A stretch of 64,000 bases of DNA from NCBI GenBank assembly GCA_020846935.1, contig JADLCY010000002.1, positions 124,001 to 188,000 of the forward strand, in the 5' to 3' direction. The translations under genes were made by a program, and so were the position numbers. The notes under the pieces are model-generated. The model was given only the letters and a program-made list of their open reading frames with translations. It was not told where the DNA came from and ran no database searches. This DNA comes from Gemmatimonadaceae bacterium (GTDB taxonomy: Bacteria > Gemmatimonadota > Gemmatimonadetes > Gemmatimonadales > Gemmatimonadaceae). Position 1 is the first letter of the stretch. Every line of letters begins with the position of its first letter. This document shows, piece by piece, positions 54,590 to 60,501 of the stretch.

Positions 54590-55010
54590 TCATCCCGTCA
54601 CCTGCGCGATCTGCAACGCCGTGTCAGGCGTCATGCTGCGCCTGGCATTGATGACCTCGTTCACTCGTGGAAACGAGAAGCCGAGCTGTTGGGCGAACGC
54701 CGACTGCGAGACCCCATCGGCCTGAGAACTCCCCAAGGCATCGCACCCGGATACGTCGGCGGGCGATGCGTTGGTAGTCGGCGCTGCACTAACGTCGTGC
54801 CGCGCGGTTTGGTGGTAGTCCGTGACTTGGACCTCGCCGGCATAGCCATCCTGCCATTGGAAGCAGATGCGGTACTGCCCATTGACGCGGAAACAGTACT
54901 GCCCACGCTGGGCGCCCAGGGGGCTTCCCGACGATCCCCCGGCGGAATTGGCTGTTCGGCGAGGGCACTGTGCGGGTCCGCAGGGCCGCGGCGAGAACCA
55001 GTCGTTGCAC
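54590..55010 (-). pseudogene. Decayed HigB-HigA toxin-antitoxin remnant
   Basis: On the minus strand IPPGDRREAP (a HigB N-terminal signature) lies one frame away from the next part. After a frameshift the frame reads RGQYCFRVNGQYRICFQWQ, then AGEVQVTDYH, matching the HigB core. The same frame continues without a stop through a degenerate linker into the HigA helix-turn-helix, GVSQSAFAQQLGFSFPRVNE, and VINARRSMTPDTALQIAQVTG, then TGA at 54590-54592. HigB and HigA are normally separate genes. The start codon, HigB N-terminus and HigA first helix are lost. It lies just beyond an attC-like site, consistent with a decayed cassette. Confidence 0.68.
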
Positions 55011-55020
55011 GTCAGAAGCT

Positions 55021-55053
55021 AAACGCAACGCCCAACCGCGTGGGCCCGGGCTT
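55021..55053 (-). terminator. Degenerate terminator-like hairpin next to attC-like site 1
   Basis: In minus-strand order GCCCGGGCCCACGCGGTTGGGC forms a stem of GCCC/GGGC with inner CC/GG pairs, followed by GTTGCGTTT. It corresponds to the stronger terminator at 57321-57352 and sits at the same distance from its attC-like site. Confidence 0.45.
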
Positions 55054-55071
55054 CCGTCTCCATCCTCTCTT

Positions 55072-55135
55072 GCCTAACCAGGCATGCAGCTGCCGGCGCA
55101 GACTGCCGCGCCGCAGCTGATGCTAAGGGTTAGGC
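55072..55135 (-). repeat. attC-like folded recombination site 1
   Basis: The 64-bp site is bounded by GCCTAAC (55072-55078) and GTTAGGC (55129-55135), exact inverted copies that fit the integron R-box consensus RYYYAAC/GTTRRRY. Inside is an imperfect stem with CAGCTGC pairing GCAGCTG and GCAT pairing ATGC. One arm has two extra unpaired bases, and there is a mismatched stretch directly inside the R boxes. The immunity gene's TAG lies within the site. Shares length and architecture with the site at 57374-57437. Confidence 0.72.
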
Positions 55136-55764
55136 CGACCTGCCAGAATGTGCGACACGTGCCGGTCAAAAAGGGGTAGCTGCGGATCATTCCTGCTCTT
55201 GAGGTACTCCCTGCATTGATCTGCCACCGCACGCGCCTCAGCCTCCTCCGACGTGAGGGCAGCTAGAGCCACTGCCGTTAGGCACCGATTGGCGGGGAGC
55301 GGCGACACAAGGCGGCTCTCGCGGTCGTTCGCGGCTAGCACACGACGCACGTACTCCAGGTCCGAATACCGCTCGAACCACGCATACCCAAACTTCTCAA
55401 GTTCGGCGAACATCTCCCTAGCCGCTTCGGAAGCATCCAATTCCGAGCGCATACTCCACCGACGCGGCCGCCCATCGATCAGATTTCCAAGTTCGGCACC
55501 AATGGTCACGCCCTTCCGATCTCCATGGCCACTTTTTTCCAGCAGTTCCTGCGCTGCTCCGAGGCGCAGACCCAAATCAAGTGTTGCGTCAACGTCATCC
55601 TCGTGGCGGATAAAGGCCACGTGCACGACCCACGTGAAGTCCGCTTCGATCTTCACGAACGTCTGCTCGCCAAAGCGAGCTCGGAAACCTCGAGTTCCCA
55701 AGTGCTCGGCCAGGTCTCGCAGCAAGGACTTCTGCAGGTGCTTCAGGTTAGGGGGCTTGTTCAC
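55123..55764 (-). CDS. Probable immunity protein for the orphan Rhs toxin tip
   Basis: The GTG start at 55764 overlaps the TGA of the Rhs toxin tip (GTGA), the usual arrangement of toxin-immunity pairs. The 213-residue protein begins with a helix and beta strands (LLRDLAEHLGTRGFRARFGEQTFVKIEADFTWVVHVAF), reminiscent of the DUF4304 group, and ends in a helical half rich in Ala/Glu. No signal peptide, so cytoplasmic, as an immunity protein should be. The stop is inside the attC-like site. Base composition is visibly less GC-rich than flanking genes. Confidence 0.7.
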   Translation of the reverse strand: MNKPPNLKHLQKSLLRDLAEHLGTRGFRARFGEQTFVKIEADFTWVVHVAFIRHEDDVDATLDLGLRLGAAQELLEKSGHGDRKGVTIGAELGNLIDGRPRRWSMRSELDASEAAREMFAELEKFGYAWFERYSDLEYVRRVLAANDRESRLVSPLPANRCLTAVALAALTSEEAEARAVADQCREYLKSRNDPQLPLFDRHVSHILAGRPNP

Positions 55765-56341
55765 GGACGTCGTTCTTCGGTAAGGAGAGATGGTAACCGC
55801 TTGCCTTTAAGGGCCGCTGGCGCGTTCTTACCGACGAGTTCTGCTCCCTCGCTTGCCATTCGTTCATCCTTCAGCAGCTGCGAGGCGTTGCGAACCGCAC
55901 CGCCTGACTTTGCTTCAATTGCCACGAGTGTCTCATCGGCCCGTTGAACAAGGAAGTCGATCACTCGTCGGCCCGCCGAAGTTCGTGCCGAGACCTGGCG
56001 CCCGAGAATCGTGGCTCCTTCTGCAATCAGACCAGCTTCCACCGCAGCTTCGCCCGCCCTGCCGGCTTGACGGAGCGCCGCTCCTGTCAGCTTCCCGCCA
56101 ACAGTCAGTCCGGTAGCAACCTCCGCACCAACGATCGTCGCCGTGGGAAGGTTCGCAAGGACCCAAACGCAAACTGGGGTGAGCGGCCCACACAGCCCAA
56201 ACAGATCGGAGAAGTTGATCGGATCGCCGCTGGCGTACCCATACAGGTTCAGCCCGCCGGCGAGGCCGAGGGGATCTTCTTGCGTGAAGCGTCCCGTGAT
56301 GTTGTCGTATGCGCGAACCCTCAGCCACGCAGCAGCGCCTC
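55761..56341 (-). pseudogene. Orphan Rhs C-terminal toxin tip (no start, REase-like toxin)
   Basis: The frame reads the Rhs core VRAYDNITGRFTQEDPLGLA and GGLNLYGYASGDPINFSDLFGL, then a linker and a toxin domain with RRVIDFLVQRADETLVAIEAK, a PD-(D/E)xK nuclease pattern (Asp then ExK). There is no Rhs body and no usable start before 56042, so the tip is silent until recombined onto an Rhs gene. The Rhs frame begins in the last codons of the mazF gene, which marks a recombination junction. The immunity gene follows at once. Called pseudogene in the sense of an orphan module, not a decayed sequence. Confidence 0.78.
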
Positions 56342-56686
56342 AATACGCGCGAGTACTTTCGCCATGATATCGGCTGGAACGCGAGCGATGCGCTGAGCGC
56401 GCCGCATGCGCCAGTCGAGCGACTTGACCTGATCAGCGAGGACGGCGCCGCGCAGTCGACCGGAGGTCGGGAGCACGACTTCGAACGGATACCCCTTCAC
56501 GTTCGAGGTGATCGGACACACCAGCGCCAACCCGACGCGCGCGTTGTACGACGCAGGGGACAAGACGAGCGCCGGTCGACGACCGGCCTGTTCGTGCCCG
56601 GCCTGTGGATCGAACTCAAGCCACACCGCGTCGCCTCGGTCAGGCACGAACGCGCCGCGTTGTCGCGGTGTCGTGGCCCTCACCAC
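56321..56686 (-). CDS. PemK/MazF-family toxin endoribonuclease
   Basis: This 121-residue protein from GTG 56686 has the MazF fold pattern: RGDAVWLEFDPQAGHEQAGRRPALVLSPASYN, LALVCPITSNVKGYPFEVVLP, GAVLADQVKSLDWR. It is a sequence-specific mRNA endonuclease restrained by its antitoxin. It overlaps the mazE-like gene by seven bases. Its last codons run into the orphan Rhs core, so this gene borders the recombination joint and could have stabilised the module as an addiction cassette. Confidence 0.88.
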   Translation of the reverse strand: MVRATTPRQRGAFVPDRGDAVWLEFDPQAGHEQAGRRPALVLSPASYNARVGLALVCPITSNVKGYPFEVVLPTSGRLRGAVLADQVKSLDWRMRRAQRIARVPADIMAKVLARIEALLRG

Positions 56687-56919
56687 ACTTCATGCCCCCG
56701 CGGCCGGCCCGTCGACACCTCGCCGTGCAGGTTCTCAGGCGTCACGCCCGCGAGCAATGCCCCCAGTGATGCCGAAGGATCGACCCGCCGGATGAGGAGT
56801 TGCTGGCCGTCGAGGGCAAGCTCGACTTCCGATCCGTCGCTCACCGCCATGACGCGGACTGCCGCGACGGGCAACCGCACGGCCAGGCTGTTGCCCCACT
56901 TCCGAATTGCGACGCGCAT
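56680..56919 (-). CDS. MazE-like (AbrB/SpoVT-type) antitoxin
   Basis: A 79-residue protein with the swapped-hairpin DNA-binding motif of MazE: MRVAIRKWGNSLAVRLPVAA and EVELALDGQQLLIRR. The C-terminal tail would wrap the toxin. The gene precedes the mazF gene with a short overlap, the normal antitoxin-first order, and probably represses the pair's own promoter. Confidence 0.85.
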   Translation of the reverse strand: MRVAIRKWGNSLAVRLPVAAVRVMAVSDGSEVELALDGQQLLIRRVDPSASLGALLAGVTPENLHGEVSTGRPRGHEVW

Positions 56920-57081
56920 GAGGACGCTCCAGGGTGTCTACAATGACTCTACGGTGGCGGCTGCAGGTCCGCAAGTCCGACGCGCCCGAGCGTGCGTACG
57001 CGCCGCTCTCCTGGTCGCCCGTGCCGCGCCCGCCGGGTCTCCGCCGAGTGAGGGTTGCGCGGTCGTTGCCCATCAATGCCC

Positions 57082-57235
57082 CTCGCCCCCGAGTGGGCCA
57101 GGCTCGAGCCGCGCGTGCAGCAGTTCCAGGGAGCTGCCCCCGGCCGACCGGCGCACCGTCCTCAAGCTCGTCGACGCCCTCGTCGATGCCCGCCGCCGCA
57201 CCACCCCGCCCAAGCGCGCGCGCAAAGCCAGCTGA
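57082..57235 (+). pseudogene. Decayed C-terminal piece of a helix-turn-helix-type regulator
   Basis: On the plus strand LAPEWARLEPRVQQFQ and, after a one-base shift, ELPPADRRTVLKLVDALVDARRR read like the C-terminal tail of XRE-type regulators, ending at TGA 57235. The frameshift falls in the CCAGGGAGCTGCC stretch near 57130. No DNA-binding domain is left upstream. Only this short match supports the call; the surrounding 56920-57370 holds nothing else I recognise. Confidence 0.4.
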
Positions 57236-57320
57236 GCACCCTGAGAAAGCAAAACGGCGCGGGCCCCGCTGGCGCGGGGGCAGGCTGGCCGCGCGAAGAG
57301 CCAGCCGTTGCTCTGGCAGC

Positions 57321-57352
57321 TAAAACAAAAGCCCGACCACGTGGGCGGGGCT
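57321..57352 (-). terminator. Intrinsic terminator next to attC-like site 2
   Basis: In minus-strand order AGCCCCGCCCACGTGGTCGGGCT forms a stem with a 4-base loop and is followed directly by TTTTGTTTT. This is a classical Rho-independent terminator for the Rhs toxin/immunity transcript, just beyond the attC-like site. The equivalent position at site 1 has a decayed version, so the unit 'site plus terminator' is shared. Confidence 0.75.
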
Positions 57353-57373
57353 CCGTCTCATTCCTCTCTTCTT

Positions 57374-57437
57374 GCCTAACCGGCGTGCACCTGCCGGCGC
57401 GGTGCAACTGCGCCGCAGGTGACGCTACGGGTTAGGC
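57374..57437 (-). repeat. attC-like folded recombination site 2
   Basis: Also 64 bp, bounded by GCCTAAC (57374-57380) and GTTAGGC (57431-57437). The stem has CACCTGC pairing GCAGGTG and GCGT pairing ACGC. Relative to site 1 both strands have changed together at these positions (compensatory changes), and the two unpaired bases lie at the same places. The TAA of the immunity gene at 57432-57434 is inside the terminal box. Confidence 0.75.
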
Positions 57438-58136
57438 TTGGCCCCGCTGAGGCCCTCCACCAGTCTCTCGCTTTTCAATTGCCCTTAGGGCGCGTTCGAC
57501 TTCGCTTCTCGCCCACCCTGTTGTTGCTGGCATCTTGCTTCGGAGAAATGTGATTTCCTCCATTCCACCGCACTCCGCTAGAGCCATCGACACGTGCCCA
57601 GGAAACTCGTCATACGCATCCCGCAATACTCGGCGTGCGGTTGCCGGCGGTAGGGCTCGCCCAATTGCCAAGGCTAGCATCTGCCGGGCATCGCCATACG
57701 ATCGATTCTTGAAAGCTTGCTCGAGCCAAGCCCCCAGTTTCAGAGGTCGCAGCTCGGCGAGTGTGTTGCTGATCGCCCACCGAAGACTCGCGGAAGGCGT
57801 CGCCTCAAACAGCTCGATGAGAGGCGCGGCGTCGAAGGACTCGCCGGCTGTACCCAAACTCCTCACGATCGACTCGTGCATGCGGGTCAAGTCTTCACGC
57901 TTTAGGAGTCCAACCAGTACCCCGGCCAGTTGTCCAGAGATCGGAGCGTTGGCCTCGACAACCTCCGCGAGGGAGGCACCGCGAACGCCAAGACGGGCAA
58001 GCTCCTGAAGAAGCAGTTGTTCCTGATCGAGTGTGGCTCGGCCAGACGCATCCCGATCCGCGATCTTCCGCTGGTACTCAGCGTCTCGTGACAGATCGCG
58101 CATCAAGTCTGCTGCACTGATTCGTCCCTTCTTCAT
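57432..58136 (-). CDS. HEAT-like probable immunity protein
   Basis: A 234-residue helical protein, without signal, starting in an ATGA overlap with the Rhs toxin gene. Repeating helix pairs (SLRWAISNTLAELRPLKLGAWLEQAF; ALPPATARRVLRDAYDEF; MALAECGGMEEITFLRSKM) resemble HEAT-type repeats, a common immunity architecture. The direct 3' position to the toxin is the main evidence. The gene ends within attC-like site 2. It should neutralise the REase-type toxin of the Rhs protein. Confidence 0.75.
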   Translation of the reverse strand: MKKGRISAADLMRDLSRDAEYQRKIADRDASGRATLDQEQLLLQELARLGVRGASLAEVVEANAPISGQLAGVLVGLLKREDLTRMHESIVRSLGTAGESFDAAPLIELFEATPSASLRWAISNTLAELRPLKLGAWLEQAFKNRSYGDARQMLALAIGRALPPATARRVLRDAYDEFPGHVSMALAECGGMEEITFLRSKMPATTGWARSEVERALRAIEKRETGGGPQRGQA

Positions 58137-59788
58137 GGTAGAAAGCGCACCTGAATGCCGTTGTTCTTGATGAAGTCGGCCAATGGTCTCGTGAACTCCG
58201 TCGATTGCCTGACAACCAGCTCAAAGCTGCGGCCGGTGCTGTTGGCGAAGGCCGCAAGGTCCCTGATCTGATTCGTGAGACTCAAGCGTGCAACGTTCTT
58301 GACCTCAGTCAAGGTGGTGGAGTTCAGGGCATCTGGTATGCGATAGGCCGCCGTACCAGTCGCTGATGCAATCCTCACCGTGTTCTTGATGATTCCCGCG
58401 GCAGCCTCACCTGCTCGACCCAATGCAGCGCTTTGTGCAATACCTGTCGCCCCTGCTCCCGCTCCCCCTCCCGCCATCGCAGCCGCACCGGCTCCGACAG
58501 CAGCCGTACCCACAGCGAAGCCACCCAGCATTGACTTCATCGCCGGCGCCCACGCTGCGAGCTGTTGAAATGGGTCGCAGTACGGCGGGCAGGCCATCAG
58601 CCCGAACGGATCGCTGACATTCACCGGGTCGCCATTCGCAAACCCGTAGAGATTCAGCCCTCCCGCCAAGCCGATGGGATCTTCTTGCGTGAATCTGCCA
58701 GTGGCAGGGTCATACACCCGGTTTCGCCGAAAAAAGGTACCCGCGGCATCCTGCTTGTCCTCCAGAAGAGTCCCGTTGAAACTGGACGCCCCGTAGCCCG
58801 ATCGGGCATTGTACGCCGTCCGGGCGCCCGGCCAGTCCCAGTAGAGACAGCGCTGACTCAGCGGGACCGTACGGCAATGCGTACCGCCACTGGACTTCTG
58901 AAGATATGCTTGGCCGTTGTCGAACGCTCCGCCGGCTGCCTGTCCCAGGACGTTCCAGAACGGAATCATGCCGTAGGTTGGCCAAACACCTCCTCCCTCG
59001 GCGTCGCGGTACTTGTAACGGGTTACACTTAGTGGTTTATCTAGCCCATTGCCGTACGCGTATATCACGCGGCCGTAAAACGGATTCGGATCGTACAAGC
59101 CACTGTACTTTGGCAAGATGGGGACGGTAGCCGTATCGTTCTCGAAATGCGCTGAGTGCGCTGGATCTCCGGGCATCTGGATCTCAGCAAGTTCTTGCTC
59201 GCCGTCCCACACCGTGCGCCGCGTGAAACTCACGAAGTACTCAATTGCCGGATTCGTGTGCGCCGGTACGTTCCGTTGCGCCCGTACCCACACACGACGA
59301 CCGAGGGCATCATACCTGTAGTCTTCGATGACCGAACGCCGCGATCCGGAGAAGTCGTCTTGCCGCAATAGGGAGGCAACAAGTCTTCCTGACGCGTCGT
59401 AGTATGACAAGCGGTCTTCGTGGATCGCATCAAGGCTCCCGGCGGTCTTGCTCGTTACCTCAACATTTCCTGCGGAATCATAGAGAATGCGCTGAGGCCC
59501 GCCTGTCGAACTGTTGTTCAGTGTGTCACGACCAACGTGTGCCCGATAAAGTTCCGTTCGATAGTTGTACGTGATCCTCGGGCCCTGCAGGGACGTGCCT
59601 ATCCACACGCGCGTGGTGTCACCACTGACTCGCGCTTGCAGGTTCCCGAGCCCATCTACGACGACCGTGTCCTGAGACTTGTAGTGCAACGAATCGCCGG
59701 CCCTCTCGGCAATTCCCTTCTGCCGCTGACGTGTGCCGATGAGATACCCTAATGCTGAGTAGCGGGTGCGACGGGATCGGCGGGACAT
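58133..59788 (-). CDS. Truncated Rhs protein with Tox-REase-7-like C-terminal toxin
   Basis: The 551-residue protein from ATG 59788 has a good ribosome site (AGGAG, five bases before) but lacks the long N-terminal half of Rhs proteins. Residues 1-310 are YD repeats (for example YRYDALGRRVWVRAQRN, TRRTVWDGEQELAEIQ). The core follows: RNRVYDPATGRFTQEDPIGLA and GGLNLYGFANGDPVNVSDPFGL. An Ala/Gly-rich hydrophobic segment leads to the toxin, with STTLTEVKNVARLS carrying an ExK nuclease motif and FIKNNGIQVRFLP. No delivery gene is visible. It may be expressed as a short toxin or serve as a tip reservoir. Confidence 0.82.
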   Translation of the reverse strand: MSRRSRRTRYSALGYLIGTRQRQKGIAERAGDSLHYKSQDTVVVDGLGNLQARVSGDTTRVWIGTSLQGPRITYNYRTELYRAHVGRDTLNNSSTGGPQRILYDSAGNVEVTSKTAGSLDAIHEDRLSYYDASGRLVASLLRQDDFSGSRRSVIEDYRYDALGRRVWVRAQRNVPAHTNPAIEYFVSFTRRTVWDGEQELAEIQMPGDPAHSAHFENDTATVPILPKYSGLYDPNPFYGRVIYAYGNGLDKPLSVTRYKYRDAEGGGVWPTYGMIPFWNVLGQAAGGAFDNGQAYLQKSSGGTHCRTVPLSQRCLYWDWPGARTAYNARSGYGASSFNGTLLEDKQDAAGTFFRRNRVYDPATGRFTQEDPIGLAGGLNLYGFANGDPVNVSDPFGLMACPPYCDPFQQLAAWAPAMKSMLGGFAVGTAAVGAGAAAMAGGGAGAGATGIAQSAALGRAGEAAAGIIKNTVRIASATGTAAYRIPDALNSTTLTEVKNVARLSLTNQIRDLAAFANSTGRSFELVVRQSTEFTRPLADFIKNNGIQVRFLP

Positions 59789-59852: not shown

Positions 59853-60481
59853 TCAGAAAACCGGCGCCACTTCTGTGTCGGCGGGGGCACGCACCTCGTA
59901 CAACACTGAGGCGCCATCCCAGACCGTGCGGGTCACCTCGCTGCGACAGCCGGAACTCCGATCGTGCGTGACGCACACGTTGTTCAGCGTGTCGCGAATC
60001 ATCTCGCGCCACACGCGCCGCCCAAGGGCGTCGTAGCGATACGTCTCCCGTCGGTTGTACCGCGTGACCGGCCCGGGCGCCGGGTTCGTATCCAGCGTGA
60101 AGCTCGCCTGCACGAGTCGCCGCTCGCTGTCGTAGGTGTTGATCGTGCGCCGCGCTTCACGATAGAACGGCCCCAGGGGCACCGTCTGGAATTGTCTGGC
60201 CCTGAGATCCTCGCGTAGGGCACCGTCGCCGTCCCGGAAGTAGTAGGTCGTATCAGCGATCGGATTGCTCAACCCGCCGGCCGGCACCTGTACGCCTCGC
60301 ACCAGGCGATCGCTGTTGGGATCATATGTGAACGTCGTCGGCCGGCCGGCCCCTGCCAGCCAGCCCTGACTCGTGCGTCGGAGCCCGAGGGCATCGAGCG
60401 CGTAGTCTTCAAGCCCGTTGCCGTACTGGCGAACGCGAGATGCCCGAGTGACGAATAGCCAAGCGTGTCGCCTTCGAGCAC
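59853..60481 (-). pseudogene. Broken Rhs-repeat fragment
   Basis: GDTLGYSSLGHLAFA is in one frame and RQYGNGLEDYALDALGLRR in the next, so a one-base shift lies near 60432. The rest holds YD repeats (YRYDALGRRVWREMIRDTLNN, TRTVWDGASVLYEVRAP) aligned with the start of the downstream Rhs ORF but ending at TGA 59853. The other end is cut off 20 bases from the N-acetyltransferase stop. It is a second, incomplete Rhs copy and probably not translated. Confidence 0.75.
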
Positions 60482-60501
60482 GTTCTTCGGTGCGACGGGT
60501 C

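Follow-up and report, generated by a model that had tools for sequence, protein, structure and literature searches.

The end of a truncated Rhs gene in the 64-kb stretch of Gemmatimonadaceae DNA analysed here (the window) raises the question of whether Rhs toxin tips and their immunity genes can be gained as integron cassettes. A preliminary description of the sequence had proposed that two 64-bp sites bounded by GCCTAAC/GTTAGGC, at the 3' ends of two Rhs toxin/immunity modules, are attC-like integron sites. The locus comprises the following features, in which W1 and W2 are the two sites, R1 is a covariance model for attC described below, and G002 is another genome of the same genus.

About 54.6-55.0 kb, minus strand: HigBA remnant, read from translations.
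54985..55071, minus strand: shared block next to W1, terminator-like, 75-82% DNA identity with the W2 block and three G002 sites.
55072..55135, plus strand: attC W1, with R'' at 55072-55078, R' at 55129-55135 and the expected crossover at 55129/55130; based on R1 score, fold and the R''/R' pair.
55123..55764, minus strand: putative immunity gene of module 2, 213 aa, weak DUF4304 match under the cut-off; ends inside W1.
55130..57431, plus strand: putative cassette A, delimited by the crossover points of W1 and W2; all intact genes on the minus strand.
55761..56318, minus strand: orphan Rhs tip, in which the core fragment GRFTQEDPLGLAGGLNLYGYASGDPINFSDLFGL continues in frame into a putative nuclease toxin; based on a TIGR03696 match and translation.
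56321..56686, minus strand: mazF-like toxin gene, PF02452, 96.4 bits.
56680..56919, minus strand: mazE-like antitoxin gene, PF04014, 36.6 bits.
About 57.1-57.24 kb, plus strand: tail of an XRE-type regulator, a remnant read from translations.
57287..57373, minus strand: shared block next to W2, terminator-like, fold -20.2 kcal/mol, z -0.8.
57374..57437, plus strand: attC W2, with R'' at 57374-57380, R' at 57431-57437 and the expected crossover at 57431/57432; based on R1 score and fold.
57432..58136, minus strand: putative immunity gene of module 1, 234 aa, HEAT-like; stop codon in the R' box of W2.
58133..59788, minus strand: C-terminal part of Rhs with a Tox-REase-7 tip, PF15649 70.7 bits, TIGR03696 58.3 bits.
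59853..60500, minus strand: out-of-frame Rhs repeat remnant, weak PF05593 match; the Rhs gene is truncated.

Orphan Rhs modules are laid out as an Rhs core end, a variable tip and an adjoining immunity gene, and this layout is found here, the toxin and immunity roles being predicted from sequence; for the putative nuclease toxin of the orphan tip, the match was a weak YraN-like one (NCBIfam, 18.6 bits, under the cut-off). Both immunity genes end inside a site, as the preliminary description had stated: the stop codon of module 2 lies at 55123-55125, inside W1 and just past its R' box, while that of module 1 (57432-57434) is a TAA on the complement of R' and takes up the first three bases past the expected crossover. 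The MazEF pair that it had named is borne out by the PF02452 and PF04014 matches, and its HigBA and regulator genes are present as remnants. GC content is about 0.60 in the tip and immunity stretches and about 0.69 around them, and cassette A is a mosaic in this respect. No second attC was found on the other border of module 1, and the truncation of the Rhs gene means that the copy in the window may be a relic. The regulator tail (window 57130-57210) has counterparts of approximately 76-80% DNA identity at L162:10408-10478 and L205:1182-1261, in Rhs loci of different genera.

Whether W1 and W2 are attC sites can be judged from their boxes, folds and scores. They are the sole perfectly complementary RYYYAAC/GTTRRRY pairs at 50-150 nt spacing in the 64-kb window, at exactly the positions first proposed. 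Folded as single strands, W1 reaches -43.1 kcal/mol (z -5.4) and W2 -47.6 kcal/mol (z -6.3), and none of 200 shuffles of either was equally good. Each forms one long imperfect hairpin, in which one arm carries two isolated unpaired bases and the R boxes adjoin an asymmetric spacer that is likewise unpaired, in the order R'', spacer, 4 bp, unpaired G, 6 bp, unpaired C and stem. The 6-bp distance between the unpaired bases is identical in native attC of Gemmatimonadaceae. Alignment with copies from relatives revealed compensatory changes at 5 stem pairs across five homologous sites and at none when the partner was slid by 1-3 columns. The kept stems and extrahelical bases of the original proposal hold.

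The model R1 was built from 18 attC in integron arrays of seven genomes of the same family, with W1 and W2 left out. It scored W1 at 43.1 bits on the plus strand and 12.2 on the minus strand (E 1.7e-8), and W2 at 38.2 and 17.6 bits, respectively (E 3.7e-7), in a search of 486 kb for which the E-values are only rough, as the search tool itself states. Nothing else in the window exceeded about 12 bits, which leaves both sites a margin of more than 20 bits over background. These scores may be slightly low because the structure string of R1 is partly off by one column, with one pair dropped and one misplaced. As outside controls, R1 recovered the attC beside an annotated Diaphorobacter integron integrase (31.2 bits) and rows of attC in other phyla; it missed a cassette site of a class 1 plasmid, which indicates limited sensitivity outside Gemmatimonadaceae. 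A degenerate pattern scan of contigs across genomes gave mostly chance matches, among which R1 picked the attC of other phyla. Short attC of approximately 60 nt, near the Gemmatimonadota type, occur at L245, L251, L254 and L294 on contigs of Nitrospinota, Planctomycetota, Bipolaricaulota and Acetothermia.

The palindromes could instead be ordinary terminators or REP-type repeats that resemble attC by chance. They do lie at gene ends, adjoining a terminator-like block, and near Rhs tips elsewhere a nearly perfect 60-nt hairpin stands between two convergent Rhs immunity genes (L203:9325-9384 in genome G167). We discounted the latter as an attC; it is possibly a degenerate one turned two-way terminator. 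However, the scores of W1 and W2 are far over background, one strand is preferred, and the unpaired bases sit at attC positions. The terminator-like hairpin lies next to the attC as an element of its own, Rfam at its gathering threshold gave no match in the window, and a DNA search of the genome with the W2 stretch, for which W1 is too diverged, returned only W2 itself. Background scores or a repeat spread over the genome, which the preliminary description had named as grounds against its proposal, were thus looked for and did not appear. The terminator or REP reading is practically excluded, largely by the covariance scores, and has a very small probability in our estimate. W1 and W2 are genuine attC sites of the kind found in Gemmatimonadaceae integrons.

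An attC needs to be considered together with the integrases of its genome. The window belongs to a genome of 4.5 Mb in 15 contigs (G000), which encodes two full-length, apparently intact integron integrases (437.6 and 345.5 bits, cut-off 265) and also contains broken copies. All integrase matches over the cut-off are on other contigs and none is on that of the window, in line with the earlier suggestion of an attC cluster lacking a local integrase. Contig C1 carries cassettes with attC directly behind a truncated intI, and a genome-wide R1 search in which 150 of 8198 candidates were scored found further attC clusters on other contigs; owing to this sampling the counts are lower bounds, and W1 and W2 themselves are absent from them. 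With attC starts 2.3 kb apart and no intI nearby, W1 and W2 correspond to a CALIN, i.e., an attC cluster away from its integrase, and the two apparently intact intI genes and other attC clusters tie them to real integrons. In two other Gemmatimonadaceae integrons (L010:15388-17285 and L016:9650-12121), the array follows the 3' end of intI and runs in its direction, i.e., in an inverted layout, with an attI-like GAAGTTAGG box just past intI.

The proposal that the attC mark the 3' ends of the modules was only partly upheld: the sites are attC and they do accompany Rhs modules, but they are not the 3' ends of canonical cassettes. The attC of native arrays, read in the direction of their genes, carry the unpaired bases on the 5' arm. 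W1 and W2 do so when read along the plus strand, which settles the earlier question of the strand that carries these bases, and the minus strand encodes the Rhs and immunity genes. Together with the strand preference of R1, this indicates that the modules are reversed relative to attC. Thus, gene 3' ends do not point towards their own attC as in a canonical cassette; instead, 55130-57431 and two loci in G002 (L119 and L120) each form a unit between the crossover points of consecutive attC on the same strand, i.e., a reversed cassette. W1 and W2 point away from the Rhs and immunity genes next to them, so that each module belongs with the DNA beyond the R' box of its attC. This orientation and the terminator-like block common to both sites had gone unremarked in the preliminary description. 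A rough codon-bias rule assigned 73 native-array cassettes as forward, 13 as reverse and 26 as unclear; with 13 of 86 classifiable cassettes reversed, the Rhs modules are not ordinary cassettes. It is notable that these modules are reversed every time, although their loci are not independent of one another. One may speculate that, where an array is transcribed from an outside promoter, reversal would also keep its tips silent.

To see whether the arrangement recurs, we searched for Rhs core ends with the TIGR03696 profile and scanned many of the loci found with R1. The association of attC with Rhs tip/immunity modules, first proposed from the window alone, recurs in other genomes. In G002, all three Rhs tips (L118, L119 and L120) have an immunity gene directly followed by a reversed attC, as do two loci, L162 and L163, of a genome from another genus (G184), in every case within 32 nt of the gene end. 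Over seven loci, the immunity stops lie between -6 and +32 nt from the R' box. At L163, the arrangement stands behind an open Rhs frame of 1566 aa. L211 is a probable further case with another attC type, and L210 is another, more weakly supported than L211. Cassette A has two counterparts in G002. L119 has the same layout of tip, immunity gene and toxin-antitoxin (TA) pair between two attC, with hicAB in the place of mazEF, and L120 is a minimal form, in which a 1.16-kb unit consists of no more than core fragment, tip and immunity gene; the attC on its two sides belong to a row of four that also contains other cassettes. The attC of L120 resemble the one beside intI at the end of contig C2 of G002, and the ends of contigs C2 and C10 have a cassette start of approximately 55 bp in common, with one mismatch, which suggests that the array is probably part of that integron. 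A search by flanking genes for an empty insertion site found the relatives' copies diverged, on other contigs or absent.

Most of the Rhs tips examined in Gemmatimonadaceae are without attC. Genome G027 has 11 orphan Rhs tips in tandem (L199:2337-15884), each opening with an identical 115-nt core fragment and none bordered by attC, and the orphan tip arrays of G025, G173 and others mostly lack attC borders as well, so attC are not needed for such arrays.

The DNA around the sites bears on how they came to lie there. W1, W2 and three G002 sites have about 90 bp ahead of attC and the attC itself in common, and divergence begins directly past the GTTAGGC crossover box. Between the window and G002, the mazEF genes adjoining the block have 81/73% identity; in this comparison, no similarity was seen among the tips and immunity genes past the attC. 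The block next to W1 has a terminator-like hairpin at 55045-55030 with a fold z of about 0, and a G002 copy forms a good one in the minus-strand sense (z -3.1), the window copies being weaker. Pieces of 29 bp, about 90% identical to the block, lie near Rhs cores at L132, near 7614 and 10974, in a genome of another family (G044) at a locus without attC, hinting by sequence likeness that part of the block may be an older Rhs-associated element.

These relationships give rise to the main rival reading, that one attC cassette, along with its block and TA pair, was at one time inserted downstream of an Rhs immunity gene, after which block and attC were copied along as a 3' border while tip modules moved by homologous recombination through the Rhs core and this common border, the integrase now being idle. 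The homology of the block in G000, G002 and G184 suggests common descent and would account for the constant orientation there. Core recombination suffices for the orphan tip arrays without attC, and the site at L161, which we rejected, has lost its R' box. On the other hand, L120, L211 and L210 have other attC types without the block, L120 stands in a row of attC with other cassettes, and divergence starts at the crossover box instead of being scattered through the block. We therefore regard such copying as a serious explanation, though an unlikely one.

TA pairs adjoin the block in the window, L118 and L119, so that Rhs genes might also be a mere landing place, with unrelated mazEF or hicAB cassettes inserted off-target into secondary sites near the immunity genes; off-target insertion has been named as a source of CALINs (PMC8618304). 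We consider this highly improbable, as L120 lacks a TA pair and it is the tip/immunity unit that its attC enclose, and seven landings no more than 32 nt from an immunity stop would need a special target.

We hypothesize instead, with reasonable though not full confidence, that the Rhs tip/immunity modules are present or former integron cassettes that were recombined through attC behind an Rhs gene and whose tips are switched via the shared core. Cassette A would be such a unit with its genes against the attC, comprising the orphan tip, its immunity gene, mazEF, the block and, at the end, W2. This last site directly follows the immunity gene of the resident, by now truncated, Rhs gene. The bordering of modules by attC is seen directly at these loci. 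From there, an integrase encoded elsewhere could join the folded attC of a circular cassette to an attC behind the Rhs locus or in an array, and because the immunity gene abuts the crossover box, a new module would be placed downstream of the Rhs gene and read in its direction. The retained core fragment of each module could then let homologous recombination swap the tip, the model discussed for orphan modules (PMC3150448). We infer the integrase movement of the window modules, their order of insertion and the switching of tips from the arrangement of the locus. More tentatively, the integron may act as a loading device, in which the integrase captures cassettes at an attC maintained downstream of the Rhs gene, in the direction of that gene, and these are put to use by recombination in the core; this stronger version is possible but doubtful.

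Clusters of attC without an integrase, TA cassettes and orphan Rhs modules are each already known. The locus resembles CALINs and sedentary chromosomal integrons in its family-type attC, TA cargo, lack of a local integrase and integrases elsewhere in the genome, but differs from them in that the cargo is an Rhs tip with its immunity gene, the genes are reversed, and the attC lie directly behind an Rhs locus. It shares with the orphan rhs-CT/rhsI and cdiA-CT/cdiI arrays of Poole et al. 2011 (PMC3150448) the core fragment, variable tip and immunity gene behind a full or truncated Rhs gene, whereas here the modules are bordered by attC; that paper's text makes no mention of integrons and attC and describes the exchange mechanisms as unknown. 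The type VI secretion system (T6SS) effector-immunity arrays that have been likened to integrons (PMC5361080) show a similar stepwise gain of modules, but that paper reports no evidence for an integrase at them, whereas here real attC are present. As in the TA cassettes of chromosomal integrons, mazEF or hicAB lies inside an attC-bounded unit; the difference is that a polymorphic toxin tip and the matching immunity gene are joined to the TA pair. We found no report of Rhs modules as integron cassettes, nor of the three elements together, in the open-access literature searched.

The attC borders would make module exchange directly testable by standard integron assays, in a phylum, Gemmatimonadota, whose integrons have been little studied. 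They would give tip-immunity modules a site-specific route between strains and species, and thus may represent a new route for spreading polymorphic toxins, as the preliminary description had envisaged. The cargo of integrons would be widened from resistance and toxin-antitoxin genes to contact-dependent weapons, and the capture machinery of integrons probably helps bacteria to acquire new weapons of this kind.
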